Assembly: GCA_004123355.1 (NCBI GenBank) | Contig: SCHM01000004.1 | Span: 7,653,017-7,717,016, forward strand | Length of the DNA: 64,000 nucleotides | DNA from: Amphirosellinia nigrospora | Lineage: Eukaryota; Ascomycota; Sordariomycetes; Xylariales; Xylariaceae | Direction: 5' to 3' | Part shown: positions 767-61,300 of the stretch, piece by piece | Layout of the letters: each line of letters opens with the position of its first letter | Numbering within the stretch: the stretch's first letter is position 1 | Made by a program: the position numbers and the translations under genes | Notes under the pieces: model-generated | The model's database searches: none | Seen by the model: only the letters and a program-made list of their open reading frames with translations | Told to the model about the DNA's origin: nothing

Positions 767-3700
767 TCATTCCACGTTATAAGTGAATTTGGTGCCCTCC
801 TTCGTCATCGCAGCCGACAGGATGGAGAATCCACTCTCGGCGTCATCATCATCCCTTTCATGCGACAGGTCCCGCGCCGAGCTAGTCAAGAACTCGCTAT
901 GCGTGACGACGAGCTGGAAGTCCGTCCAATCCATGAGCTGCGAGCACCACCGCACAACAGCCGCCTGGCCGGCCGCGTCCAGGCTGTCGAACACCTCGTC
1001 GACGAGCATATAGCGTGCGCGGTGCGTGCTGTGGGCCTGCGCGACCTGCACGAGGGCGAAGAAGACGGCCAAGTCGATGCGTTTCCGCTCGCCGCCGCTG
1101 CGCTTCGCGTACGCTAGCGTCTTGGTGACGCCTAGTGTCGGGTCGAGGAGAACCGGGGTCCGCGCGCCTTCTCCGGGGCCCTCGTCGTCTTCTTCGAGGT
1201 CGGCCGTGAATATGGTTCGCAGCATGCCCGTCGTGAGTTCGCGAGCGTGGCGCGTGTTGCCGTACAAGGCGAGGAGGATCTTGGAGGCGACGGCGTTGAG
1301 CTCTTCTAGGCTCTTGTCGAGGACGTAGCCGCGGAATGACGGGGCCGTGGCGGATTTCGTGCGTCGTCGCGACAGCGAGACCTCCCAGAACGCGAACAGC
1401 TCTCGCGTCGACGTCAAGGACTCTACCTCTGCTTCCATGGCGAGGCGACTGAATCGCTGTTCGCCGAGCATCGAGGTTTCTTCTTCAACTAATTTTTCAT
1501 AGATTTCGATCTCCTGTTCTATCTTCGCTAGCTTTTTAACGAGTGCTTCCCGGTGTTTAGCCTCCTCGCTCGTGTCGACGCTCTTACGTTGTTGCTTAGC
1601 CTGCAGGTCGTGCAAAGCACCCTGTAAACCACTCTGCTCCTCTAAGAGTTTGGAGAGGCGGTTAAATGAGACGGACAGTTGTCGTCTCACACCTCGCGCT
1701 TCGGTCTCGGATATCTTATTCGATAGTGACCGTACATATTGTTCATCGAGATCTCTATCGAGTGCTACTTTAGCATGAGCCTCGTCCCTCTCTTTAGTTA
1801 GAGTAATTATCTTTGATTCTCTCTTAGCCAAGTCTGCTTGAATTTTGGCAATAGCGCTCTCTGTCGCGCCTATATCTTGCTGCTGCTCAGGAAAAGCGGA
1901 CAAGAGCTTCTGTAGGAGGCTGTCGAGTTGATTAGAGAGTCGTTTCAATGATAGTAACCCAATTCGGATGAAATGGACCGCCATTCGGTTAACAGGGCTA
2001 TATGAGCTGAGATAATCTCCAGTGTTGGAAGCATGTAGTTGGAGCCATGATATGGTTTGAGCAAGCCTCCGAAGTGCCAATTCGAGGGTACGAATGTGCT
2101 CCGTCATTACTGTATCGGCCCGTGTTGGTTCGAGGTTCCGGAGTTCGTCACGCAAGGCCTGGCACCGACTCTTGCTTTCGCGAATTTTTTGATCTGACGA
2201 AGACTGTATTGTAGCTACATCTTCCCAAATCTCGACTTCTTTCACTCTAGATTGGGCTTGATCAACTGCCTGTTGAGCTGCCTTGATTTTCGGCTTGACT
2301 TCTTCCAACCTTCTGTGAGATGTGTCCATGTCCTCATCGGATACATCACGGACTCTGGGGCTGTTGAGACTATGGTCTCTCGCTTCGCTCTGGCTGAATG
2401 CTTCCCTCACTTTGTTTACTTCTATCCGTAAGCGTCGCAACTCGTTTTCTTTTTTGCAATGCGGGCTTTAATGAGGGACATGGTCTGTTTAACTGCATCA
2501 ATTCTGCTGCGAAGAGCGGTAGTATCGTCATCGATTTCTCGGACCATTCTCCGGGACAAATTAGCAGATTGATCCAGTCGAGAAAGCCCGAGGATTGACT
2601 CGATCAGGTCATGACGCTGGGCAGGGGTCGAGCTCAAAAAGCCAGCGGCGCTCTCGTGCCCCAAAACCACCGTTCTGATGAATTCCTCGTAGTCGATACC
2701 TAAAAGCTCGTCAATGGCGGCTTGAGTGGCGCGAGCCTCGCCGTGCTCAAACTGCGGTTGTTCGATGCCATGAAGCGAAACTACAATACGGTTCCCGTGG
2801 GTCTTGTGCTTTCGATATCGAGTGATTGTGTACCCATTTGAAAATGTGAGGCCGACCATGCAATCCTTGCCAATGATGTCGTTGACGACGTCCGTGACGG
2901 ACAGTCCTTTACGAATACAGCGCCCGAATTGACACCAGACTATTGCTTCAATCAGCGTGCTCTTCCCTGAGCCGTTGTTTCCAACTACGAAGGCTAAGCC
3001 GCGCCCAAGGTCCCCGTCAAAATCAATGGTACATTTCTCTTGGATACCGAGAAAGTTGGAAATCACAATTGAGCGTGGCTTGGCCACGAAGACGTGTTTA
3101 GTAGGAGTCGAGGAATCGCCCCGGGTAGAAGTGGAATAGGATGGGTCCAGCAGTGTTTTGTAGCCTGTGCCATCTTCACCCAAGGAATTGGAGGACTCAG
3201 ATGCTAATATAAGCCTTTCGCCTAATTGAATTGTTTTTTGCTCATTCGTCGATTCAACATCTAGAGACTGAACGTATTCTCGGACGTATTCCACGGGGTC
3301 AATTTTGACTTGTTGTGTGTCATCCGGCTCTGGTGATTCATCTTGATTGTCAGGAGTGGAACGGGAGGGCTCCGCCAGCAAACCACTTGATTCGGCAAAT
3401 TGAAGGGCAGCGTCCCGATCACTTGCAGGTACGGTAGAGCCTAAGCTATTATACACGAGCGAGTTCGGCTTTGGTGTCGGCCGTGGTTCACGTATGCTTT
3501 GGGCACCTAGCGACAGCAATTTTTCCCGCGCAGTCCAATATTGGAACGGTGTCAGGTTCCCGAGCACCATGACATGTTTACCTTGCACGGTTGCCGCATC
3601 TACACCATCGCCTAGGACTTCTGATGCTTCGACGGTGATGTAGCATACTGCATGAGGGTTTATGATCAACTCGTGCTCCAAGGTCGCGGGGTTTAGCAAG

Positions 3701-4518
3701 ACAACACCGCGATCCTCATCGCGGAGGTCGGCCCACGTCAGCTGTAAAGGAGCACCCAAGTACGTAACACTACCCTTTAGTTGATCTTGGTGCGCAGCTG
3801 GTGGGGCATGTTTATTTGACTGAAGAATGGTTTGGTGACTATGGAAGTGGCCAGTGAAAGTTCTGTGTGGGCGGATTAGTCACGAGCAGCAGGCTCGAAG
3901 CTCAGGATGCGGTACTAGCCTGGCAAGAGTCTTGAAATGATCGGGGCCAGTAAGCCCACGGTATCGAATAGAGTTTGCCACATGGTCGCCATCGTTGCGG
4001 ACAACATGACGCTGTGTCACAGCACGGTTGAGGGCCAGATGCGCAAATGCGACGGTGAGGGCGGCCTCGTCTGGGTCAAGACGGGCCACGGCGGCCGTCA
4101 GCTCACTCTGGTCCTCACGAAAAGGCAAGACCAGCACACGTCGGCCATCCCATTCATGACGGCCCACCTCGTCATGAAGCGACACGAAGGGCCGCAAGCG
4201 CGACATGTTGAGCGCCTCGAGGGCCGTGGTGCCGTAGTCGCGGCGGTAGGCGAGATCGTGGTTCCCCAGGATCACGTTGACATGAGGTACCGACTGGCTC
4301 AGTTCCGAGAGGAAGCGGTACGCGGCAGAGACGACGGCGGTCGGCTGCATCGAGCGCGACGTCAACACATCTCCGCAGACGACGACTCGGCTGATGCCGG
4401 GCGTCTGTCGTGTGAGGGACACGATCCATTCGGCTGTCCGTCTTGTGCGGTCCAATTCCCGTAGTCGGAAGTGGATGTCGCTCAATAAGAGCCATCGCGG
4501 GTGTGGTAGCAGAGGCAT
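767..4518 (-). CDS. SbcD-SbcC (gp47-gp46 type) nuclease-ATPase fusion, interrupted twice
   Basis: Likely a DNA end-processing nuclease. The N-terminal calcineurin-like phosphoesterase carries SDIHF, CGDV, GNHD and, past an in-frame TGA at 3880-3882, TGHFHSH and an SbcD-type capping region. A polar linker of about 120 residues follows, then an SMC-like ATPase: Walker A VVGNNGSGKST, a long coiled coil, signature SGGERKRIDLA, Walker B YMLVDEVFDSLD and the H-loop LVVTHSEF. The signature resembles phage gp46. I see no CxxC zinc hook in the coiled coil. The TGA and a one-base shift at an A6 run (about 2450) split the frame, but all catalytic motifs are present and the domains keep the order nuclease then ATPase. 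Start is the ATG at 4518, just before the first metal motif. Eukaryotic Mre11 and Rad50 are separate proteins of different type. The single-gene reading is an inference from co-linear frames; an intron at the TGA is possible. Confidence 0.8.
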
Positions 4519-5746
4519 GGCCACATTTCCGTCATCGCCCCGAGCACACCTGGCGAGATCGTGAACGCATTGTAAGTATGTAGATAGATACCTAGGCTAG
4601 GTTGGTACTATGTATGTAGATCGGAGATGGAAACATGGAGTACCACATGCATGTTTGCCATCACCCACAAAACGCTAGCTAGCACAGTGCTTCGTGCCGT
4701 CATTTGCTAACAGGGCACTGTACATATGTCCATGAGGAAGCTCACTCAATCAAATGACATTATTATGGCGCGTACTTTTGAGCCTTATAAGCAAGTGAGT
4801 TAGTCGGCGATGCCCGGAGGAGAGTAGGTAACTTCAGATCCCGTGAGCTTGGAACACACGGTTAATCATCCGAGATGCATGTAGCTGAAACCAAAACCAT
4901 ATCAATTTTGATAGTCTAGGTAGGTAGTTTTATAGACTTAAATAGATCCGACTGGGGCCGGTTAGGTAAAGGCTGAGTTTGATGGTAACAAAACCCATGG
5001 CGGTGGGAATATTGATATACTTGCCTAGATTAGGAAATGCCTGGAATCACAAGTCGGCCGTCCGGGTAGGCCGCATTATTGACTGGTTAGCCGAGCAGAC
5101 TTCAACGTTGGTCTTTATAGGTACTTTGAAATACATAAACTAGGATACTTCCCATAGCTCATCTACTATTCGGCCATCGTCGTCTTAATGCTATGCCTTG
5201 CCTCATTTATATACTGCTTAATCCATGTTGGTAACAAGTCAAGAATGTTGATGGTCGACTATTATAATGTTTTCTATTTGTTTTCTATTCTTTACCATGT
5301 GACAAAGGGGGGGTCAGTTAGCCAAGGCCCCTTAGCGAATTAAGGTCACTATAAATACTGACTTTGACAGTTCCGTCTCTAGCAGCAAGCCACTCATTAC
5401 CTCTTCATCCCCAATTGGGAAAATAGGGCTGTTGATAGGCAATATGCCTACAACTCGAAAAAGCAAACCAGAATCACCTATTTGAGAAAACTAACCACAA
5501 TAGCCTTCCATTCCACGATAGAGGAGTCATGGGCGGCCAGTGTGGCATGATAGCCGAAGGCGGCATATACTGTCTTGAGATTCCTTTGTGCATCTCCAAT
5601 GCTATTTGTCCAATTTCCATCAACTTCTTAGTACCCAACTAGAAATATTACCTAGGTATAGATTCAGCTCACCCGTGACGCATCTCAGCTGTCACGGTAC
5701 TACGCCGCGTATCGCGTAGGCCTGCCGCCTGACATACTCGTGCGCC
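4519..5746. other. intergenic, no gene seen
   Basis: AT-rich stretch between the divergently oriented SbcD-SbcC and DUF2236 loci. It contains short TAGGTAGG-type words (about 4918) but no coding frame or RNA gene I can support. It presumably holds both promoters. Confidence 0.5.
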
Positions 5747-30174: not shown

Positions 30175-31447
30175 TTAATCCGCCGTTCCTCCTCCTTCTC
30201 GACCACCTCCCCGCCTCGCCCTCCATCTTCCCTTCCGAAACGCCTTCCTCAACTCGCAGCGACCGGTACTCTTCCCGCCGGCGCGACACTCGGCACACTC
30301 CTTGCCGTGCTTCACCAGCAAGAGGTGGAGGCCGTACTTATCCTCGTCGGGGATCCGCGCGTCCAGGTGCGCGTGCGCCTGGTCCCGCGAGGCGGCCGCG
30401 GGCCGCCAGCCCAGGAGCCCCGTGATGCGGTGCACATGCGTATCGACGGCGAAGCTGGCGCGGCCCAGGCAGAACAGGAGCACGCAGCTCGCCGTCTTGG
30501 GGCCGACGCCCTTGAACGCGAGCATCTCGCGCATGGCGTCATCGTCCGAGGCCTGGAAGAGATGATCTAGGGAATACACGCCGTACTTCTCCCGCGTCTG
30601 CTCGAGGATGTTGATGATCGCCCTAGCCTTGACGACGGCGAGCCCCCCGCTCTCGATGGTCGCCGCCAGCCTCGCGTGCCCGCCCGCAACGATGGCCGCC
30701 CACGCGTCGCTGCCGCCGTACGCGCGGTCCATGGCGAGCTTCGCCCGGCTGCTGTTGGCGTCCGACGTGTTCTGCGACAGGATGGTGCGCACGAGCGCGT
30801 CGAGCACCGACGCCGAGTCCCCGCACCCGGCGCGCGACGCCGGCGCCGCCACGGCCCCGAGGGCCGCTTGCGCTCGCCGTGCAGCGAGGCCAGGATCGCG
30901 TGCGCCAGCTTGCACTCCTCCGGCGCGGCCGCGGGAAGTCCGGGTACGGCGACTGCCGCGCCGCGGCGAACTGCGAGTACGATTTCAGCTTCTTGGCCCG
31001 TAGGTCTGCTTCCGTCTTAGCTTTGGTTGGGCTGGAGACGCTGGCGAGGTCGTGGGTCTCTGCCTCGACTTTCACTGGTGGTGATGCAACACGGGACTTG
31101 ACGTCTGCCTTTACTTCAGGCTTCACCTCGGTCTTCTCGTTCCGCTTCCTCTTCTTCTCAGTTTTAAGCTGTACGTCTTGTTTCACGCCATCGTCAGATC
31201 TGACCCTCTTGCTTCGCCGCAGTTCAGCGGGCGGGAGCGAGTCCGTAAACCGTCGCTTTTTAGTCTGCGATACCTTTTTCGGCGCGCTCCCATTCTCGCT
31301 CCCGCTCGCCCCGCTTTCATTCTTGATCTCTTGCTCATCGACCATCTCATTTTCCGCCGGCGGTGTCGCATGTCTCGCGCTGCGCCGACGATTGGTAGAG
31401 TCTACTACCACGGCTTTTGTCGTTCTAGTTCGTGGTGCTTTGGCCAT
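30175..31447 (-). CDS. EndoIII-like HhH-GPD DNA glycosylase, two frame breaks
   Basis: Base-excision-repair glycosylase, expected in the nucleus. The N-terminal 150 residues are basic and disordered, with nuclear-localisation-like clusters (KKRRF, EKKRKRNEK). The catalytic core follows: SVLDALVRTILSQNTSDANS, shown as LVRTILSQNTSD, then the helix-hairpin-helix MLAFKGVGPKTASCVLL, whose Lys is the expected Schiff-base residue, and FAVDTHVHRI with the catalytic Asp. The end has ECAEC and one more Cys, but not the full EndoIII iron-sulphur spacing C-x6-C-x2-C-x5-C. Frame changes at about 30855 and 30930 lie in a very GC-rich part between the N-terminal region and the core; the intermediate frame reads PAPEECKLAHAILASLHGE, which connects the two. 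Start is taken at the ATG at 31447 (MAKAPRTRTTK); upstream ATGs are possible. Confidence 0.75.
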
Positions 31448-50508: not shown

Positions 50509-53500
50509 TCATTGCTTAGTAGACCCCGCTTTCTTCATCTCGGCACGGGTTTTGAGGAATTGCTCTGCTGTATCCAGGCACACTGTTGAATCTAATTAGC
50601 CCTGGTCTAGAGAAGAAGAGTAAAGGGATAAATTGGAATAGGGTAATCCATTCAAAGGTGTAGAAAGAGAAATGATAAAGGCGAGAAGAAAGGAAGAAAA
50701 GCGACAATCAGGGAAGACTCACGCTTCTCAATACTGGGCGTATCAAGGATTTTCAACAGTGCAAAACCAGAGCCGAGATGTGTCGTGAACCACCTGAGTA
50801 CCTCGACGGCGGTGATAGAGTCGAGACCCAGGTCGGGTAGGCTGCTCCCGCGATCGATCGCCGCGCCCTCGGGGAGGCCCAAGAGGGTCCGCAGCCGCTG
50901 CTCGAGCGCAGTGCCGATGGCATCGGCCACAACCGCCGGATCGTCATAGCCCGCCAACTCCTCCTGGAAACTACTGCTCTTCCGCCTCCACTCCTCGGTC
51001 TCCTTGGCTTCCCCATTCCGCTGCGCGAGATGCCCGAACCGCGGGTCGAGCTGCCAGTGTAGCGGATGGGGCACGTTGCGACGATACCGGCGCAGCCCCG
51101 TGGTGATTTCTCCGGGACCGTTGTTGCCAACTGGACGACCGCTGACGATGGCCTCGAGGAACATGTGGTGCAGATCTCGCTCCGAGATGGGCGGGTACCC
51201 CTCCCTCTCGAGACCGCCGTAGAGGTCGTCGCGCTCGCGGTGCAGGAACCCCAGGCCGTAGATGACCCCGATGTTGAGCGCCGAGCCGGGAGGCCCCGTC
51301 GCCGGCGGGACGCGGCGAGCCCGTTCATGTACGAGTTCGCGGCCGCGTAGTTGGACTGCCCCGCGTGGCCGCCGACCGCCGCGAACGAGGATGTCATGAT
51401 GAAGAAGTCGAGCCCGGGCTCGTCCGCGCCGAAGAGGGCTTCGAGGTTGGACGACCCGATCGTCTTGGGCGCGAGCACGCGCTGCCACGTCGACAGGCTC
51501 ATCTCGGCGAACGCGCGGTCGTCGAGGACCATGGCCCCGTTCACGACGCCGCCGACGACGCCCGGCATCGCCTCGGATACTTTCTGTTTCAGCGATACGA
51601 GGCTCTCAATGCTCGTCACGTCGGCCTCCTCGATGCGGATGGTCGCATGGTAGCTCTTGCTCAGATGGGCGACCCAGTGCGGCGAGGTAGTGGGTGGGTT
51701 CCGGCTCGCGAGCACGATGTTGCGCGCTCCGCGGTCGAGGAAGAGCCGGCACAGGCTGTGTCCAAAGTCTCGCGTCAGGCCGAAGAGGAAGTACGTCTTA
51801 TCTGGGAAGAGGAGTTGCTCGTCGGTTGTGTGGCTGACCCGACACATCGCACCAGAATCGCGCTTCCAGTCGACCAACTGGAAAAGGGGCAGGGGACCGG
51901 ATCGGGACTGCAGCTCGGCGAGTGATACCGTAGTGATAGACTCGGGCATCGTCGGCGTGGCTTTCACGGCCAGTGACACTGCTTGTTTCCAGATGGCCTG
52001 GATCGCGAGATGGTCGTCCCCGCCCATGCGAGCTTTGGAGCCGAACAGATTGAACCCGGGAGTGACGGGGATCGACGCTGCGAGTCTGTGGGTGAACTCG
52101 TGGCCTTCCGGCAGGAAGTCTAACACGGTTGCGTCTCGTGGAAGGATCTGGCTCAACTCTTTCATCGGGGTTCGCGGATATAGACGTAGCAGAGTATAGC
52201 GTCTAGGGTCGCCAGTTGCTATGTTGGCGTATAGCGATGGCTCTGTTTCAGGTGGTTTGACTTGTCAGCTTCCTCATTGCGATACACATGGACAAGTGAG
52301 AATTGTTGAGCTGACGGCAGAAACAGAAAAGGGGACAGGGGACAACTTACCAGCATCGTCATCACACAGTTCTATGACGATGACTTTAGGACCTAAATGT
52401 GATCCCAGAGCCGTGACTTCCACTAGGCGACTAGCTAACTCTAGTCGGGCGCAATAAGAATGAGTTGTTCGCTATGATGGGTCATAGATACACTCGTCAA
52501 AGCCACGATGTATCGAACAAGTTGGTGTAGTACTGTCGGGCTTGGAGGCATGTCTCCCTGCAGCACGATCGCCTGCTCAGCTGGGCAAGTGATGTAAGAT
52601 GAATTCACATCCGACAAGGCGACCACGTGCTCCTCCGTCTGCCATTTTCGTCCCACGCACACATAGCCGGATAACCTCTCGTTCAGCTTCAGCGGTAGTG
52701 CAGAGCTGTACTCCACATGGATGATCATGTGGCCTGGAGGTGGCTCACAGATATCGCTCTCTCTGTCTTTGAGCTCGAAGCGGACAGCGGTGGGTGACAC
52801 TTGTTCGGGGATGAGCTCAACACACTGCAGAAGGGTGCTGACGGGCCTCGTGACGATGCGGCGTAAGGCGTTCACCCTGTCATTGCCGTCCTTCCACGGC
52901 ACCACACGGGGAATCAGTCGTCTCCCGTTCTCCATGTAAATCTCAGGCTCTGGCCTCCATTGGGAACTGCCGACTGCATGCCTTTCGGCGGAGGCGAGCC
53001 GAGAGAAGTTCGTGGCAATTGTCCTGGCAGGCGATTCGGTATCGGTCGGGTCCAGGTCCAGCACTTGCAGCTTTAGGTCAGCTACCTCGGCCGCAATAGT
53101 ACGGAGAAATCCAAAACTGGCCGCGTGCTCGGGGTTTCCGCTACGCCCGTCGCGCGTCACCCAGAGCATGGTCAGGGCCGGGCGGAAGAGAGTGCGCAGC
53201 TGGTTCATCCTGTGCTCCGTCATGTTCGACATAAGCGGCTCCTCGAGATCGGCTAGCATGATAGCAGCGGCGCAGGTCCCCAGATCCTGCGCAGTCGCGT
53301 CGTCGAGAGAGCGACAGATGGTCTGGCCATAATAGGGGCCGAGTTGGTCTGGTAGACCGGCGACTAGCTGATCGTCGCTCTGCCCAGATACGCCTCGAAT
53401 CAAGAGGAGTGTATCGGTTGTGGTGCTGCTCGCCATTGTCTCAGATAGGATGCCAGGTTCACGGAACTGGCGCACGAAAATGGAGCCGACTGGGTAGAAC

Positions 53501-56500
53501 TGGTTGGAACCCCTGGCCTCTTGGATGAAGCCGCAAGTATCGAGAGTATCCTGCCAGAGCGGTGGCGTGGTGGGATGACCAACAAACGTTCTCGACTGGG
53601 CACCGAACACGGGTTTGGGCGAATCTATTAGGACCAAAAACGCCCCAGGTTTCATAACCTCACTAATATTCTTCAAAGCTTTGGTTTGGTCGCCTTTGTC
53701 CAACATTGTGGTCGGGAGAATCACGAGATCCAGCGAGGCTTCAGACTCGATCTGGGCCGCTAGCTTTTCATGGACGTTAACATCTCGCTCCTGGACTCCC
53801 ACGGCAGACTGAATAATTGTGTTGTAACCTGCGGAGGATGGGTGTAACTCGTTGCTGCCGACGATGAGAGACTGAAATGATTCGCCAATAGCAGTCAGTA
53901 TAGACTGATCAAGTCCCGTCTGTGCTGTGGCGAGGTGCAGAATATTCATCGAGGGATATCGATGTGCGATCTGCTTCACAATGCGGCCGACATGGTTTCG
54001 GAAGATGGAAACTTGGCGCGCCTCTTCCTCGATGAACGACAGGGACGTGGAAAATAGGGTTGCGTCTAGTTGACCAGCGCCCCTGAAAGAATTCAAGTAG
54101 TCAGTGTGGTTAGAGCGGCGAATGATTTCGTCAATTGCTTCGCGGGTGTCACTCGACAACATTCTATTGCACGCGCTGTGAAGATAGAAAGCGGCGATTC
54201 GGTGACAGCTCTCGACTAGAAGGATATCGTCGCCATCTAGGGCAGTATCATCAGGGCCAACAATTTCGTCTTCCGGATCGACATCCATCACCGTATGGAG
54301 GTATAGCTCTACATCATCCCTTGGGCTAGTATGGGCCCAAGCACGGACGACGAGCCCTTCGACTTGTATCTCTACTTCTCCAGCCTGGTTGGAGATGACA
54401 GCATCAACATCAAGAGTGGCTTTTGATGCGTCGACTGGCGGTGTGCAACGAGAGATTTGTGTATCAACGGTCAGTGTCGCCTTAGGGTCGGCCGCGGCGC
54501 CGCCCTCCAATGCAGCAAGGTTAAATAATATCCGGTCGATCTTTGTCGGCAGGAAAGATGTCCAGAGTGACCTGTTCAGATGTTAGTTCATCTCACCATA
54601 ATAGACCGTGGCACCTTCGACTCACCCGTCGCCCGGAGCTGCGTAAGCCAAGAAAGCCGGTTGGAAACAAGCGTCAAGCGTTGCCGGGCTGACCTTCAGC
54701 TTAGTGGTATCGTTGGCGTGGAGCCGGCTAAGCGTCGCGCAGCAGGACTCATAGTGACGGCGGATGGAAGAGAGGGCCTTGAAGGGACCTGTATATTCCA
54801 GGCCGATTGCCTTCATCATCTCGTAAAAAGCCTCTGGATCAGCGGGCAATGTTTCGGATAAAAGGGGTTGCCTGGGTGGTAGGGCACGCATGAAAGGCTC
54901 CCCCAGAACAATGCTCATCGAGCCACTGGCGTTTTTCTTCATATTATGCGTGATATTAGAAGTTTCGGCAGGACACGAACACAGGTCAAATCTAGCGTCA
55001 ATAGTTGAGCTGTTTTTGTCACCGGCCGAAAACCTAAGGCAAAAGACGGTTTCGACACCAGGGCCACCTTGGTCAATGGCAATGCCGCTGGATATATCAA
55101 TGTCGCGAAGCTCGACTAACGAGGCCTTTCGGTCACCAAGTAGGCATCTTGCCGCATCGAGTGCCATGACACAATAGGCTGAGGCGGGTAACAATGCTTG
55201 ATTCTGGAACTTGTGGTGTGCCAACCACGGGATATGATCCAAGTGCAAAATGTTTCTCCATTTCATCTCGTCAGCGCTATCCTCACGACTGCGAATGCCT
55301 AGAAGCTCATGGGGCTCGTCGGCCCGGAACTGGTACTGGTGGGAGATTCGCGATTCCCGCCAGTAGTTGACGGAGTGGTCGAAAGGATAAGCAGGAAGGT
55401 TGAAGAGTCGTGATTGGAGCAAATCTGGCATGGAGCACTGTTCAATGTAGTTGCCAAGGTCAATTGACTTGCATCCAAATCTGGACCACATGAACCCGAG
55501 GAATTTCGAAACAGACCGCCCGCTATCGCCCGATCTGTCTAGGGGACAAGAGTACGGAATGATACGATCGGGGTTGTGAGCCATGACGATCTGCGTGAAA
55601 GGACCCTGCAACGCTGGATGAGGGCCAACCTCTATAGCGCAGTCAAATTTATCACTAGACTGCGTCAAGGCGTATTCCACAGCACCGCGAAACTGCACTT
55701 TGCTGACCATGTTGTCTGCCCAGTATTGGCAGTCGAGATCGGTGGCTCCGGTCAGGGGGCGATCCTCCACACTCGAGATCCAGACGACTCCGTTTCCTTC
55801 GGGGATGGGTGAAATGCCGTATTCTCGTAGAGCCTCTACATATTGAACGGCGGGCTGCGTCATATGGTGTGAATGATAGGCCGTGTCGACATACAAGACC
55901 TTGGGGATTTTTGCTGGATGACCAGCATATTATAAGCTTGCTGGATGTCATCAAAGTCACCAGACAGCGTCACACTAGTCGGGCTGTTGCTTGCTGCGAT
56001 GCAGATGCCGCCATTGAACAGAGGGTCATTACAAAAACCCAGAGCCTCGCTCTCGGACATGTTGGTTGCGAGCATGCCACCCTTTTGGCCACGCTCGCCG
56101 CCGGCGAGATGTGTGCCGAGGCCTCGGTAGTAAGAGACGATGATGGCATCTTGTGCGGAGAGCCGACCCGCGGCGTAGGCGGCAGCGATCTCCCCCGACG
56201 AATGCCCGATCACGGTGTGGAAGTCGATGCCGATGCTTCGCAGAAAGTCGACGAGGGCGATCTGTAGGGCTGTGCAAAGAGGTTGCGACACGGCTGCCTC
56301 ACGGATGCGTGATGTGTCCGAGTTCGCCAAGATCTGTCCCTCTAAGGTCCAGGTGGATGGATGGGGGCACGTCTCGAGAACGAGATCGAGCATGCGGATG
56401 GTGTCACGGTAAACGTTGTTCTGCTGTAGGAGCCATCTGGACATAGTCGGCCACTGCGCACCTTGACCGGTGAAGATGCCGAGGATGCGCAGAGGCGACT

Positions 56501-58277
56501 CTCTGGAAATAGACCGGCCATGGGGTTCGCCGGGAATTGTCGATCTATTTGCGACGAGGAGAGAGTCTAACACCGCCAGGACCTCGGTCTTGGTAGAGGC
56601 AGAGATGGCTACCCGATATGAGAGATCCGAGCGGTGAGAGTACTGATGCCATGCCAGCTCGAGAAGGTCGACTTCGGTCTGGCTGAGGTATACCTGTAGG
56701 ATTCGACTACGTCTCGCAAAGATTTGGGCGAGGCCGCCGAGAGAACAATGGGTAACTGCATGCCGTTGTTCGGGTGTGGCTGCGCCGCCAAGACGGACGT
56801 GGCTTCGTCCGACCCGGCGGATCGGCCCCGAGTGGCTGGGGCGACGCCGTGGAACTCAGGGGTGTAGGCCTCGATGATGGCGTGTGCATTACTACCTCCG
56901 AAACCAAACGAGTTCACGGAGGCTCTGCGAGGTTGTCCGGGAGGGGGGTCGGGCCAGCGTAACAGGACCATGGGGATCTGGAGGTTCCTACCGAATGGTT
57001 GGATTTCGAATTCATATACTCGAATGCAGATTAGGTGGTACAAGCCCGCACTTCATACTCCAGATCACCTTGAGCACGCCTGCAGGCCAGCGGCCGCCTC
57101 TGTATGTCCGATCACCGTCTTGATGGATCCAACCAGCAACTTCTTTCTGGGAGAGACGAGGAGAGGACGAGGACGGAGACAACGAAGACGAGGAGGAGGA
57201 GGAGGAGGACGACGACGACGACGACTGCAAATTGTTTTGGCTGAGACTAGAATCGGGAAAGAAGGCATTATGAATGGCAATGGCTTCCTGGGGGTCGCCG
57301 GCTTGGGTTCCCGTGCCGTGAGCTTCGAAGTACTGGCATTGGTGCAAGGGATTGCTAGAATCGAGGCCGGCACGTCTGTAGGTGTCCCGGATGAGCGTCG
57401 CTTGAGCTTCCGAATTCGGTTGCGTGATCTGGGCCGTCCTGCCATCGGCGTTGATACCAATTTCGCGAATAACGGCTTCAATCTGGTCACCATCGGCGAG
57501 AGCAAGGGACAACGGTTTTACAATGAGGGCAGCGAGGCCTTCGCCGCGGGCGTAACCATCGGCTCTGGTGTCCCACATGTGGCATTTTCCGGTAGGGCTC
57601 AGCAGGCCGAGAGCGGACTCGACGACGAATTGGTTCGGCGCGAGCATGAGATTGGCGCCCGTCACACACGCCATAACGCAGTGGCCATCGCGCAAGCTCT
57701 GTATAGCCAGATGCAATGCGACGAGACTGGAGCTGCATGCAGTGTTGACGCTGAGAGAAGGGCCTTGGAAGTTGAAGTGGTAGGAGGTTCGGTTAGGGAC
57801 AATGGCAGGCGAGTTGCCCGTCGAAAAATGTTCCGGCGTAAGAAGCTGATCCCGCGAGGCGAGAAGCTCGTAGTCATTCGTCATGCAACCTGAGAAGACG
57901 CCAACTTTCTTACCACTGTATTGGCTGAGAGAGATGCCGGCAGCTTCCATGGCTGAGTAGGCAAGCTCGAGCGAGAGGCGCTGCTGCGGGTCAATGGCTT
58001 CAGCTTCCTTAGGGGAGATACGAAAGAAATGAGCGTCGAAGGCGGCCGGGTTGACCCCGAGCCAGTACCCCTTGATGGAATTAGTCGTGCCATGGTGCTT
58101 GGGGTTTTCATGATAGAAGCCCCGGGCAGTAAATCTCGAGGCGGGAACCTCGCGTGAGAGGTCATGAGGGTTGCGTATAAGATCCCAAAGCTGAGAAGGT
58201 GAGTTCACATCGCCAGGGAAGCAACAGCTGCTTCCCACAATAGCAATGGGCTCCGAGGGATTCGATATATAAGCCAT
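50509..58277 (-). CDS. highly reducing polyketide synthase of the PKS-NRPS type, ending after the ACP
   Basis: Domain order on the minus strand: KS (from 58277; [15 protein letters not shown] with active Cys, a Ser14 tract, then [16 protein letters not shown]), AT ([25 protein letters not shown]), DH ([11 protein letters not shown] and LDACFQ), a C-methyltransferase-like region, a pseudo-KR/ER-zero region like that of PKS-NRPS enzymes, KR ([33 protein letters not shown]) and ACP ([11 protein letters not shown]). Introns: 54572-54625, 52243-52350 and 50583-50722. The last exon encodes [13 protein letters not shown] and stops at 50509, so no NRPS, thioesterase or reductase follows. The methyltransferase glycine-rich motif is degenerate ([10 protein letters not shown]), and the DH motif HxxxGxxxxP has Asn in place of Gly. 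Frames break near 57150, 57083, 57020, 55912, 52446 and 51290; several are repaired by one base in a run. The start could also be the ATG at 58334. No tailoring enzyme neighbours it; the product is unknown. Confidence 0.8.
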
Positions 58278-58334
58278 CTCGAGACTGACAGAGGGAGTAA
58301 GTAGTTTAGAGAATTCAAGAATTAAAGGTTTCAA

Positions 58335-61300
58335 ACCAAGATGGGTGGTGTCAAGTATAGACCGGATTGCAATGATGTATGGTTGAAGAGAGTAGGTTAG
58401 GAATGGAGGAAGGATGGAGAGTCAAGAGGAGTTTAAGTAGACGAGGAAGGATTAAATATGATTATGGGAGCTGAGGCGTGGGTCTTCGTGTTCGAAGTGT
58501 TTATACAGAATGGCATAACCAACAAGTCTTCAGCCGCGCGGCATAGCTCACGATCTTAGGCCATGTACCTAGAGTAAAGCACCAACAAACGTACTGAATC
58601 GGAATGTAGGCAATGGACCCGCTAGGTTTGAAGGGTTCAACGCCCTAATGACATCGTGGAAGTAGTCGGCGTCGTCGAGCACCATTTTGATTTGTGCATA
58701 AGCGCCAAGCCCCCTGCTGTGTTGATTGCTCCAGGACCCAAGTCATATTTCCATAATCTAGCCGTGAATGGACTGAATAAGAGACGATGGCAACGCCGAG
58801 CCATTGTGTTATTCGAAGAAGACACCCAGTTAGAATAAAAGACATCGGCGTTAGGACTATAGAGTACTCACCCTTGGTGAGCCATTTCACGAACACGAGA
58901 AAAAATTCCTCGATGTTAAAACAATATCCAGAGTTGAGTAGCTTGAGAGTTACACCGAATGGGTCGCAGCAGTGACGAACTCGAAAGCTGCTAGTAACGT
59001 TTTAATCTCAAAATGTGTTCATCTGCTGTATAACGACAGACTACACGATCTTTCGTGGGACAATGGTAACCTGGCTGAGCGGATACAATGCGGTCTAACC
59101 AGTAATGGCGGGCATTTCGGGAGCCCTACGTGTGAATCACTTGTGTGCCATTATGGAAACCCAGATGCGAAGTTTTCCAAGTTAAACCTGTAACATCGTT
59201 AACCGTGGTACGAACTTATATCCCTTTTCATCTTAAGGTACGAAAGGGGCGCCTGTAAGCTCACAAGTAATCACTTGTCCTTATAAGGCTAATATGGGAT
59301 TGTGAATAACCAGCACTTATTTTTGGTGTTAGTATAAGAACGGCTTAGTGGAAGTCATTTCAAATCCAAATCGTAGAAGTACCAACTGTGCAAACACATT
59401 ATTTGCACCGCTGCATCCTTTGATAGCTGTAGGGCCTAGGGAGCAAGTTGTATAATCACGTTGTAGATGTCCTGGAGCGGTGAATGCATCAAGGAAGGTA
59501 CACTAGGATCCACCTAGCGTGATGCGAAAGAGCTCGAGCTCACGACGATTTTCGAAATACAGGCAAACCACTGGGGTAAGTGAAACACGTCTTCGACGGG
59601 TCATCGTGGCGGATAAGTCTGATCGTCATCCGGTAGGCTGCACTTGTACCACTGCACGTGGTGTCTGTCTGCAGAGCCTCCTAGGCATGACGTGTCCGAT
59701 TCACCTCCGATGAGTATCTGAGCAGGAGAACGTCGGAATGCCCTGGGCACATCGTGTGCTGAAACTGTAATTTAAGCTGCAATGTTGCGGGCGGAGCTCT
59801 GGGCACCTTGGTCCTACCTCATTTGCAGAGTTTGCTGAAATTTGCCATTATCTAAAAAGTTGGGAGGACAGGTATCGCAAGACCTATAGTTGTTATCCTA
59901 CAACTTCTCTGGGAAGCGCAGACCTAAGCTACGTCAGTTCGAAAAACCTATCATGTCTCCATTGACTTGAGGCTCATTGAAGGGGTTTGATGTGGCGTGA
60001 GTTTGCTCCGATTGAGACACGCAGTCGCACGGCAGTTGGCCATGATGAGGTAGGAGCTGTGTTTTCCCCGTGGCTGAGTCGTGTTAAACCTAGCCTAATG
60101 TAGTGTAAGTAGCGGATCTCTCGAAGAAACGACGGATCTTCAAGAGGGCGCGGCCGAATTTGAAGTTGTTTGTGTCGATTTCTAGGTTGACGCCCGTGGG
60201 GCTGTGGCAAATTATCTTGTCACGATGATGAAGAAAGGAACCGGGAGGACATGGTCGGTTTGCCTTTAAGTATCGCTCACATTTCCCCCCAATTCATTCG
60301 TTGGCAGGTTGGCTTGAGAACATGGCATTGGTGACAGGCTCTTCGGTTCGGCGGGACCATAGTCATGACTCAGATAGTTTTGCAAAGTTTTCCTGCGTAG
60401 ATGCCCGAAGGCAGCTTTTTGCTATGGATCTAGAAGTCCTATAAGTTAGCCCTAGTTCTTCGGGGGTTTCTTATTGTGCAACTTACACTTATTCCTAGTA
60501 GAGCTTCGGTCAAGTTGGTTACAAAAGTCTGGGGGCGATTACTAACGCCGAGCGCTCCTACTTGTTATAATCATTCATAGTTGGGAGTAAGCTCGCGTAT
60601 TGAGTTGAGATATTTGCAAGTGTCTCAAACAACAAATACGTGCGTTATCACGCTATTTACATCTGACGTAGTGGGGAAAGGACAAGCTCTGCCAGGGGAC
60701 CAAGGTTTCAAAAATAATACAATATGTTCTAGTATGAGGCAAATGCAAGGTAGCCCCGAAGCACCCTGCCCATCCTGGAGGCGATACCTCAAGCACATAC
60801 CGTATCAAGGGCAAGAACGACTTCTCTGGGTGATTTAAGTGTTTCGAACGAACCAATCTCTTTTAAGTACCGGATATTACAGGAGATTACAGGTAGCTCA
60901 TGAGTACTGTCTGACCGTATTGTGTCCTGGTAGGGTCCGGTTCTGTATATTATCGAATAGAAAATACATAGAAGTAGGAATATCCAAGAATGGATTAATT
61001 GCCGCAATTGGTGGTGAACGCTAGTCTATTTTGTTCCTTCAACATTCGGAGTGGAAGTAGGGAGAGTCGATTGGTTGAAGTCCGTGGATCTTGCCATGGT
61101 AGGTAATGCTCGAACAAAAGAATTTACTGCGATTACGTTTACTTCTCGAACAGTGCCACGGGTATGGGTGGTTCACCAGATCTCAGACGAGGGTCAAAGA
61201 CTCCGGGTATCTGGATCACATTGTGACGGAGCCAGGTCAGGTCGATCAGATCCCATGTTTGGGCTCAGGTAGGCAAGACAAATGACTGGGGTTGGTGTAC

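Follow-up and report, generated by a model that had tools for sequence, protein, structure and literature searches.

Proteins that join a nuclease of the Mre11 type to an ATPase of the Rad50 type in a single chain have been described before. According to the portion of the text available for Yoshida, Claverie and Ogata (2011, PMC3175470), such fusions occur in Mimivirus (R555), in Bacillus phage 0305phi8-36, on Clostridium kluyveri and Deferribacter plasmids, and in moss, slime moulds (Dictyostelium), a diatom (Phaeodactylum) and Micromonas. The authors put the fusions outside the canonical clades and proposed that viruses and plasmids had spread them. In that portion of the text, the string "fung" does not appear, and no fungus is among the fusions. 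Here we analyze a gene of this kind from a fungus. It lies in a 64,000-nucleotide stretch of DNA from Amphirosellinia nigrospora (contig SCHM01000004.1, positions 7,653,017 to 7,717,016; "the window"), which is part of an assembly of 48.1 Mb in 11 contigs. A preliminary description of the window had taken the gene for an undescribed system, but PMC3175470 had reported fusions from eukaryotes, a phage, plasmids and Mimivirus in 2011, so the kind is already known. Full-text searches of open-licence papers, judged by the titles and openings of abstracts among the results listed, turned up no fungal or mitochondrial fusion beyond that paper, and no cellular role or compartment for fused Mre11/Rad50-like proteins. 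Four things were not met there: the fungal clade, its loss of the zinc hook, the presequences of other members, and the sister protein from a phage.

The product of this gene is, we think, quite likely a nuclease-ATPase of the SbcCD or gp47-gp46 type in a single chain; it lacks a zinc hook and is distinct from the cell's main Mre11-Rad50. The gene (767..4518) is on the minus strand, with its ATG at 4518 and its stop codon at 767-769; the alignment of relatives has MPLLPHPRWLLLSDIHF at the start, which is consistent with this start codon. The product, of about 1,230 amino acids, has an SbcD/Mre11-type nuclease, a cap, a linker, and an SbcC/Rad50-type ATPase that is interrupted by a coiled coil. 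The preliminary description had placed a single nuclease-ATPase gene at 767-4518, with motifs running from the phosphoesterase through the cap, linker, Walker A, coil and signature to Walker B. Its coordinates were exact, the order of motifs is as it said, and the relatives are single chains. It had also spoken of a single fungal gene. This is one gene, but it is not one open frame, and it is not unique to this fungus. Three open pieces together carry the fusion, and the interruptions are an in-frame TGA and a frame change at a run of A. Given relatives that are single chains, the window copy is presumably one chain that continues across the frame change.

Exon 1 (3920..4518), which is supported by its open reading frame, the alignment of relatives, and the motifs SDIHF, GD, GNHD and AHLA, holds most of the phosphoesterase (nuclease) domain. 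Its motifs are SDIHF (4468-4482), GDVLTSR (4354-4374), GNHD (4255-4266), and AHLAL (4030-4044). Exon 2 (767..3862; from open reading frames, Pfam, PHROG and the alignment) encodes the end of the nuclease, the cap, the linker, the ATPase and the coiled coil. The final metal-ligand motif of the nuclease, GHFHSH, is at 3835..3852, and its histidines H200 and H202 (in the numbering of P0041) are invariant (29/29). The cap (3484..3834) and a polar linker with a predicted helical pair (3097..3483) have approximate bounds, taken from a model of a Fusarium relative (m4056d9f62dc5). In that model, residues 9-327 superpose on the SbcD/Mre11 nuclease plus cap, the predicted local distance difference test score (pLDDT) is below 50 at 327-384, and there are helices at 389-399 and 410-427. 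The ATPase N-lobe (2584..3096; Pfam, PHROG and motifs) includes the Walker A motif GNNGSGKST (2956-2982). It is followed by the coiled coil (1337..2583, approximate bounds, with helices in the same model) and by the C-lobe (770..1336), with the signature SGGERKRIDLA (1067-1105), Walker B (977-1012) and the H-loop (896-910). All of these features are on the minus strand. The catalytic motifs are all there, in the expected order, and the metal ligands of the nuclease and the ATPase's Walker A, signature, Walker B and H-loop are intact in the window fusion and in its relatives.

The in-frame TGA (3880-3882), which divides the first two open pieces, most likely lies in a short intron. Among 33 aligned relatives, none has residues at this site, and 28 retain both flanks; the gene models of the remaining 5 lack one flank. 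In those 28 relatives, LTGPDHFxxLA (or nearly) is joined directly to RTFTGHFHSH. Since the 57 bases at the site start with GC, end with AG, contain CTAAT, and have no counterpart in relatives, we predict a GC-AG intron at 3863..3919 (minus strand; AG|GCTAGT ... CTAAT ... CACAG|). Several relatives' gene models place the exon end at the GC donor slightly differently, as a weak donor would cause. Read-through of the stop codon (UGA CUA) was also considered and is ruled out by the alignment of relatives, as the TGA falls within the intron.

In profile searches, the fusion resembles phage recombination nucleases more than it does eukaryotic Mre11/Rad50. Pfam recognizes Metallophos in the first open piece (2.4e-6), AAA_23 in the second (1.5e-14), and SbcC_Walker_B in the third (4.2e-6), and PHROGs recognize an SbcC-like family (4.3e-42) and an SbcD-like family (6.3e-13); matches of this strength go beyond chance. 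The best PHROG matches for the two halves are the T4-type gp47 and gp46 families (PHROG 100 and 77), both for the window pieces and for 29 of 29 fungal fusions. Unlike the fusion, gp47 and gp46 are encoded by separate genes in T4 and in cyanophages, and gp46 has a CPTC hook, which the window fusion lacks. Bacterial SbcCD and eukaryotic Mre11-Rad50 share the fold of the nuclease plus cap and that of the ATPase head, but they are separate proteins, the zinc hook is present in E. coli SbcC and in this fungus's own Rad50, and their profiles are either unmatched on the window fusion or far under their cut-offs. For example, TIGR00618 scores 75.4 bits against a cut-off of 478.5, and TIGR00619 scores 25 against 77.65. 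The preliminary description had found the motifs closer to SbcCD or T4 gp47/gp46; by profile, T4-type gp47/gp46 is indeed nearer than eukaryotic Mre11/Rad50.

Separate genes encode the main Mre11-Rad50 of the cell, from which the window fusion is distinct. The fusion is single-copy in this genome, and a separate Mre11 matches PF04152 (Mre11_DNA_bind), which finds nothing in the window pieces up to an E-value of 0.1. Similarly, TIGR00606 (rad50) matches a separate gene and has no match in the window pieces at E up to 0.01. The separate Rad50 locus (L108, C1:9206500-9212500) is spread over many frames, and a CELC hook motif is readable in one piece. The zinc hook profile PF04423 had no match in this genome, which is no real test, because the Rad50 locus, with its CELC, is frame-broken. 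Like the 2011 fusions, the window fusion has an N-terminal metallophosphoesterase and a C-terminal Rad50-like ATPase in one chain, in the same order; it lies outside the canonical Mre11/Rad50 and SbcCD clades (here, with few cellular rows in the trees); and separate Mre11 and Rad50 are retained in the same genome. It differs from them in having no zinc hook.

The fused family is old and patchily distributed. A first homology search found 248 proteins, the best of which was from Xylaria scruposa (79% identity over 99% of the query). Among the best 120 of the 248, 113 have at least 1,076 amino acids, which is the size of a fusion. The named genera in these best 120 include Xylaria, Nemania, Trichoderma, Fusarium, Clonostachys, Chaetomium, Podospora, Cytospora, Apiospora and Gaeumannomyces. 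By genus, all of the named entries are Sordariomycetes except for one (73% identical) that is filed under Lasiodiplodia, whose label may be wrong. A second search, for longer proteins only, found 26 proteins and added Phyllosticta (Dothideomycetes, 50% identity), Kalaharituber (Pezizomycetes, 27%) and Physarum. A third search, with the Physarum protein, found 37 proteins including the query. It added Naegleria lovaniensis (1e-207), Tirmania, Terfezia, Ascodesmis, Rhizina, Geopyxis, and many unnamed proteins from metagenomes or transcriptomes; there is then a gap from 4e-37 to 1e-7, beyond which are non-fused SbcC/Rad50-type proteins. The copy from Phyllosticta citrichinensis (P0138), a Dothideomycete, is on a 6.3-Mb contig and groups with the Sordariomycete copies, which may reflect horizontal transfer or patchy retention. 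Two public gene models are probably annotation errors: P0125 (1547 amino acids, Cladobotryum) is merged with a P450, and P0131 (1906 amino acids, Colletotrichum, named FAS1) has further domains.

We also searched viral, genomic and plasmid collections. In IMG/VR, the queries were five fused proteins whose chains open directly with the nuclease domain, and 80 of 202 relatives were kept; one of the 80 was 47% identical, and the others were at most 26% identical. The exception (L118, IMG/VR 3300049855_000348) is a fused open reading frame of 1164 amino acids (L118:7998-11492) on a 220-kb contig from an uncultured phage. It stands amid phage replication genes; its neighbours are a DnaB-like helicase, an exonuclease, a RuvC-like resolvase and a phage helicase. 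The record also matches phrog_2 (8.8e-36), which we take to be the large terminase, and has no match to the terminase profile PF03237. The phage protein and the metagenomic proteins P0164 and P0166-P0169 have the same domain order as the window fusion, but they retain the zinc hook (CPTC in L118); they have no presequence. L118 and P0164 are 63% identical over 323 nuclease columns. In a collection of named phages, the best 25 of 1,661 matching records were 22-26% identical. The matches listed from a collection of genome contigs included one locus, with an ATPase match only, and a plasmid search with a viral fusion (L048) as the query gave 9 records, all weak. Among the phage gp46-like ATPases, L040:7077-9878 seems to hold an intein-like insert at Walker A (...GAGK / ...HNTT...).

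Trees of both halves place the fusions in one clade. In the nuclease tree (46 rows), the 31 fused rows form a clade with support of 100/99, as do 30 of 45 rows if L118 is left out (100/99). In the ATPase tree (55 rows), the 38 fused rows form a clade with support of 100/100, and so both halves support one fusion that was inherited as a unit. This clade unites Sordariomycetes, Pezizomycetes, Physarum, Naegleria and the 220-kb phage, apart from cellular SbcCD/Rad50-type rows. The phage protein L118 groups with five proteins that lack presequences (99/94 for the nuclease, 100/99 for the ATPase). In the nuclease tree, this phage-type group is beside all of the eukaryotic and similar copies (95/88); Pezizomycetes group with Physarum and Naegleria (99/95), and Sordariomycetes with the unnamed P0171 (100/98). 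In the ATPase tree, the Sordariomycetes are beside all other fused rows, including the phage-type ones (88/70, which is weak). Sordariomycetes and Pezizomycetes are not sister groups in either tree. The preliminary description had listed a fungus-specific lineage among its options, and this is wrong for the fusion, as Physarum, Naegleria and a phage share the clade.

A phage origin of the fused family is likely. If the nuclease tree is rooted on E. coli SbcD, which is one long row, the fused clade is nested among phages (92/80 and 94/86), so that the phage rows are paraphyletic around the fusions. In the ATPase tree, phage gp46 rows form a clade (96/89) that is the sister of the fused clade, and six SbcC/Rad50-type rows lie outside (95/94). 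A search of predicted viral folds (BFVD) placed giant-virus fusions among the top matches. The one member of the 2011 set that we placed, the Deferribacter fusion, grouped on a long branch with a phage, away from the window clade.

Several points weigh against our interpretation. Cellular rows are few: one SbcD row in the nuclease tree, and 6 SbcC/Rad50-type rows in the ATPase tree. The preliminary description had named a position of both domains inside ordinary Mre11/Rad50 as a result that would refute it; with these few rows, the fused halves stayed outside. Seven long-branched or duplicate rows were removed before each of these trees was built, and the trees are without the fusions from giant viruses, moss, Dictyostelium and algae. 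The two halves disagree, weakly, on the order of branching within the fused clade. When all rows are retained, the fused clade of the ATPase tree does not include the Geopyxis copy or the viral fusion L048. Given these two placements and that of the Deferribacter fusion, it is probable that fusion took place on several occasions, which is also the view of the 2011 paper. The evidence for a separate Rad50 consists of TIGR00606 pieces, none of which is over the cut-off alone. Finally, the frame change in the window copy, if real in the organism, would break the gene.

As the preliminary description had noted, the coil pieces of the window fusion contain no CxxC. More broadly, among 135 full-length Sordariomycete-type proteins, a set that includes the one from Phyllosticta, 131 have no CxxC; the other 4 have CAHC or CAQC, which by inspection we take for chance occurrences in a helix arm. 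Among 28 evaluated proteins from the rest of the fused clade, 25 have CxxC in the coil (the exceptions are Geopyxis, P0151 and P0171). The hook also occurs in the gp46 proteins of T4 and of a cyanophage, in E. coli SbcC, in 6 of 6 other phage ATPases, in the Deferribacter fusion and in a piece of this fungus's own Rad50. Because the hook is found in all of these groups, its loss in the Sordariomycete-type clade is, judging from the sequences, derived. The loss coincides with the absence of a presequence.

The protein likely works as follows. The N-terminal phosphoesterase, with its metal-ligand positions kept, would be the nuclease and, by analogy, would be manganese-dependent. The cap and the linker, with its helical pair, would tether the nuclease to the ATPase head, which the N- and C-lobes would form at the base of the coiled coil. 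Two chains would dimerise by binding ATP between their heads, and the ATP-gated dimer would clamp DNA ends or hairpins and hand them to the two fused nuclease domains. Since nuclease and ATPase are fused, their stoichiometry is fixed at 1:1. The hook that joins the coil tips in Rad50, SbcC and gp46 has been lost in this clade, so these proteins must act by dimerisation of the heads and nucleases alone or by another contact at the tips.

Outside of the Sordariomycetes, many eukaryotic members look built for the mitochondrion. We used a simple criterion for a presequence (residues 1-30 contain four or more K/R but not a single D/E). The second and third searches gave 25 fusions that are neither from Sordariomycetes nor of the phage type, of which 17 (from eukaryotes or unnamed) have an intact start. 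Such N-termini were found in 12 of these 17, whereas within the same proteins 578 of 51,000 internal windows (1.1%) fit the pattern. The 12 include all seven named Pezizomycete proteins and Physarum. The other five are Naegleria (no D/E in the first 40 residues, but 3 K/R in the first 30) and four unnamed proteins. Six Pezizomycete proteins that we measured have 32-57 residues ahead of the domain, with 5-8 K/R and no acidic residue in the first 40. N-terminal ends such as ARSLST, ARQFTSS and RLYTT resemble sites for the matrix protease. The five phage-type proteins begin at the domain, and none has a presequence by this criterion. As for the other end of the protein, the Pezizomycete copies P0147, P0158-P0161 and P0163 have K/R-rich motifs near their C-terminal ends, which are a possible extra DNA-binding part; Geopyxis P0175 has none. 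Nuclear-localisation motifs do not separate the groups (86 of 136 Sordariomycete-type proteins vs. 16 of 20 others).

These N-termini raise the question of whether the protein is a mitochondrial nuclease for DNA ends or recombination in this fungus too, imported without a classical presequence. We consider this unlikely, despite the high proportion of presequences in Pezizomycetes, Physarum and others. Naegleria and four unnamed proteins lack one by our criterion, and Sordariomycete-type proteins have a median of 9 residues ahead of the domain (137 of 143 were measured; 7 have at least 31), with the pattern in just 3 of 143. The window copy has no presequence: MPLLPHP directly precedes the domain. 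We found no convincing upstream exon near its ATG that might encode a presequence; there are two short basic frames with an ATG, at 5593 (39 amino acids) and 5206 (15 amino acids), for which no splice test was made. The organelle option of the preliminary description is thus indirectly favoured for the relatives, but not for the window copy. A scenario that we offer tentatively, and with real doubt, is that a fused recombination nuclease of the phage type entered eukaryotes and became a mitochondrial processor of DNA ends, which was kept in Pezizomycetes, Physarum and others. In the Sordariomycetes, this fungus among them, where the protein has neither presequence nor hook, it would have moved to a different location and come to function hookless.

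Another possibility, which we judge somewhat less probable than a mitochondrial role here, is that the enzyme serves in defence or clearance and cuts foreign, palindromic or branched DNA (from viruses, plasmids or transposons) instead of repairing the host genome. T4 gp46/47 are annotated as needed for degradation of host DNA, and the family's distribution is patchy. Also, E. coli SbcCD breaks DNA at hairpins (PMC3175470, in the available text). However, no defence neighbourhood was apparent in the 20 of 24 open reading frames of at least 230 amino acids in the window that were scanned, and the presence of one gene in many Sordariomycetes is more like housekeeping. The window also holds a piece of a base-excision repair protein of the HhH-GPD type (PF00730) at 30175-30984 on the minus strand.

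The second break in the gene is a one-base change of frame at the A-run (2450..2455, minus strand), where the relatives are uninterrupted. They align there without a gap, which rules out an intron. We think that this is very probably an assembly error, because HSP70 and Rad50 genes are also frame-broken and the downstream half shows no decay. Among 20 HSP70 matches in the same assembly, which served as a control, six neighbouring pairs overlap while the profile continues (C8 and C7 have two such pairs each, C5 and C1 one each), so that an intron would not fit between them; other HSP70 copies are open. Gene models drawn from this assembly call for care. Elsewhere in the window, a polyketide synthase (KS, AT, DH and KR domains; 50652-58421, minus strand) occupies several open pieces that overlap or adjoin one another. 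Its AT domain is in two frames about 35 nucleotides apart, with no room for an intron, and the second AT match is below the cut-off; this is a further sign of indels in the assembly.

If the frame change is real, the gene would be dead in this strain. That seems improbable. The break does fall in the N-terminal arm of the coil, where relatives are continuous, but the 566 codons downstream contain no additional lesion. Also, the ratio of divergence between the C-terminal and N-terminal halves averages 1.77 in 7 pairs that include the window copy (range 1.59-1.93), which is similar to 1.71 in 21 pairs of intact relatives (1.44-2.53), and HSP70 genes have six breaks in this assembly where an intron would not fit. 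It is far less probable still that programmed -1 frameshifting links the two frames. A AAA AAG is in the right frame, and we take it to be a textbook slippery heptamer, but the relatives require no shift, and an indel in a run of A easily yields such a heptamer in an indel-rich assembly. Lastly, a recent joining of the separate Mre11 and Rad50 genes in this genome would give this domain order, but it can be dismissed almost entirely, as it is contradicted by both trees (the separate Mre11 has the longest branch and groups with E. coli SbcD, far from the fusions, with the usual caution about long branches) and as TIGR00606 and PF04152 match the separate genes instead of the window pieces.

For many eukaryotes, the pattern of presequences offers a testable answer as to where these fused proteins act, namely in mitochondria. 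Phage-derived parts are present in the machinery for mitochondrial DNA, and if the link to phages is true, then a recombination nuclease joins the phage-derived parts of organelle DNA upkeep. Whether a machine of the Rad50 type requires a zinc hook is a question for which the hookless clade of Sordariomycetes provides a natural test. Trichoderma, Fusarium and Chaetomium species carry the fusion, and deleting or tagging the gene in them should be simple.

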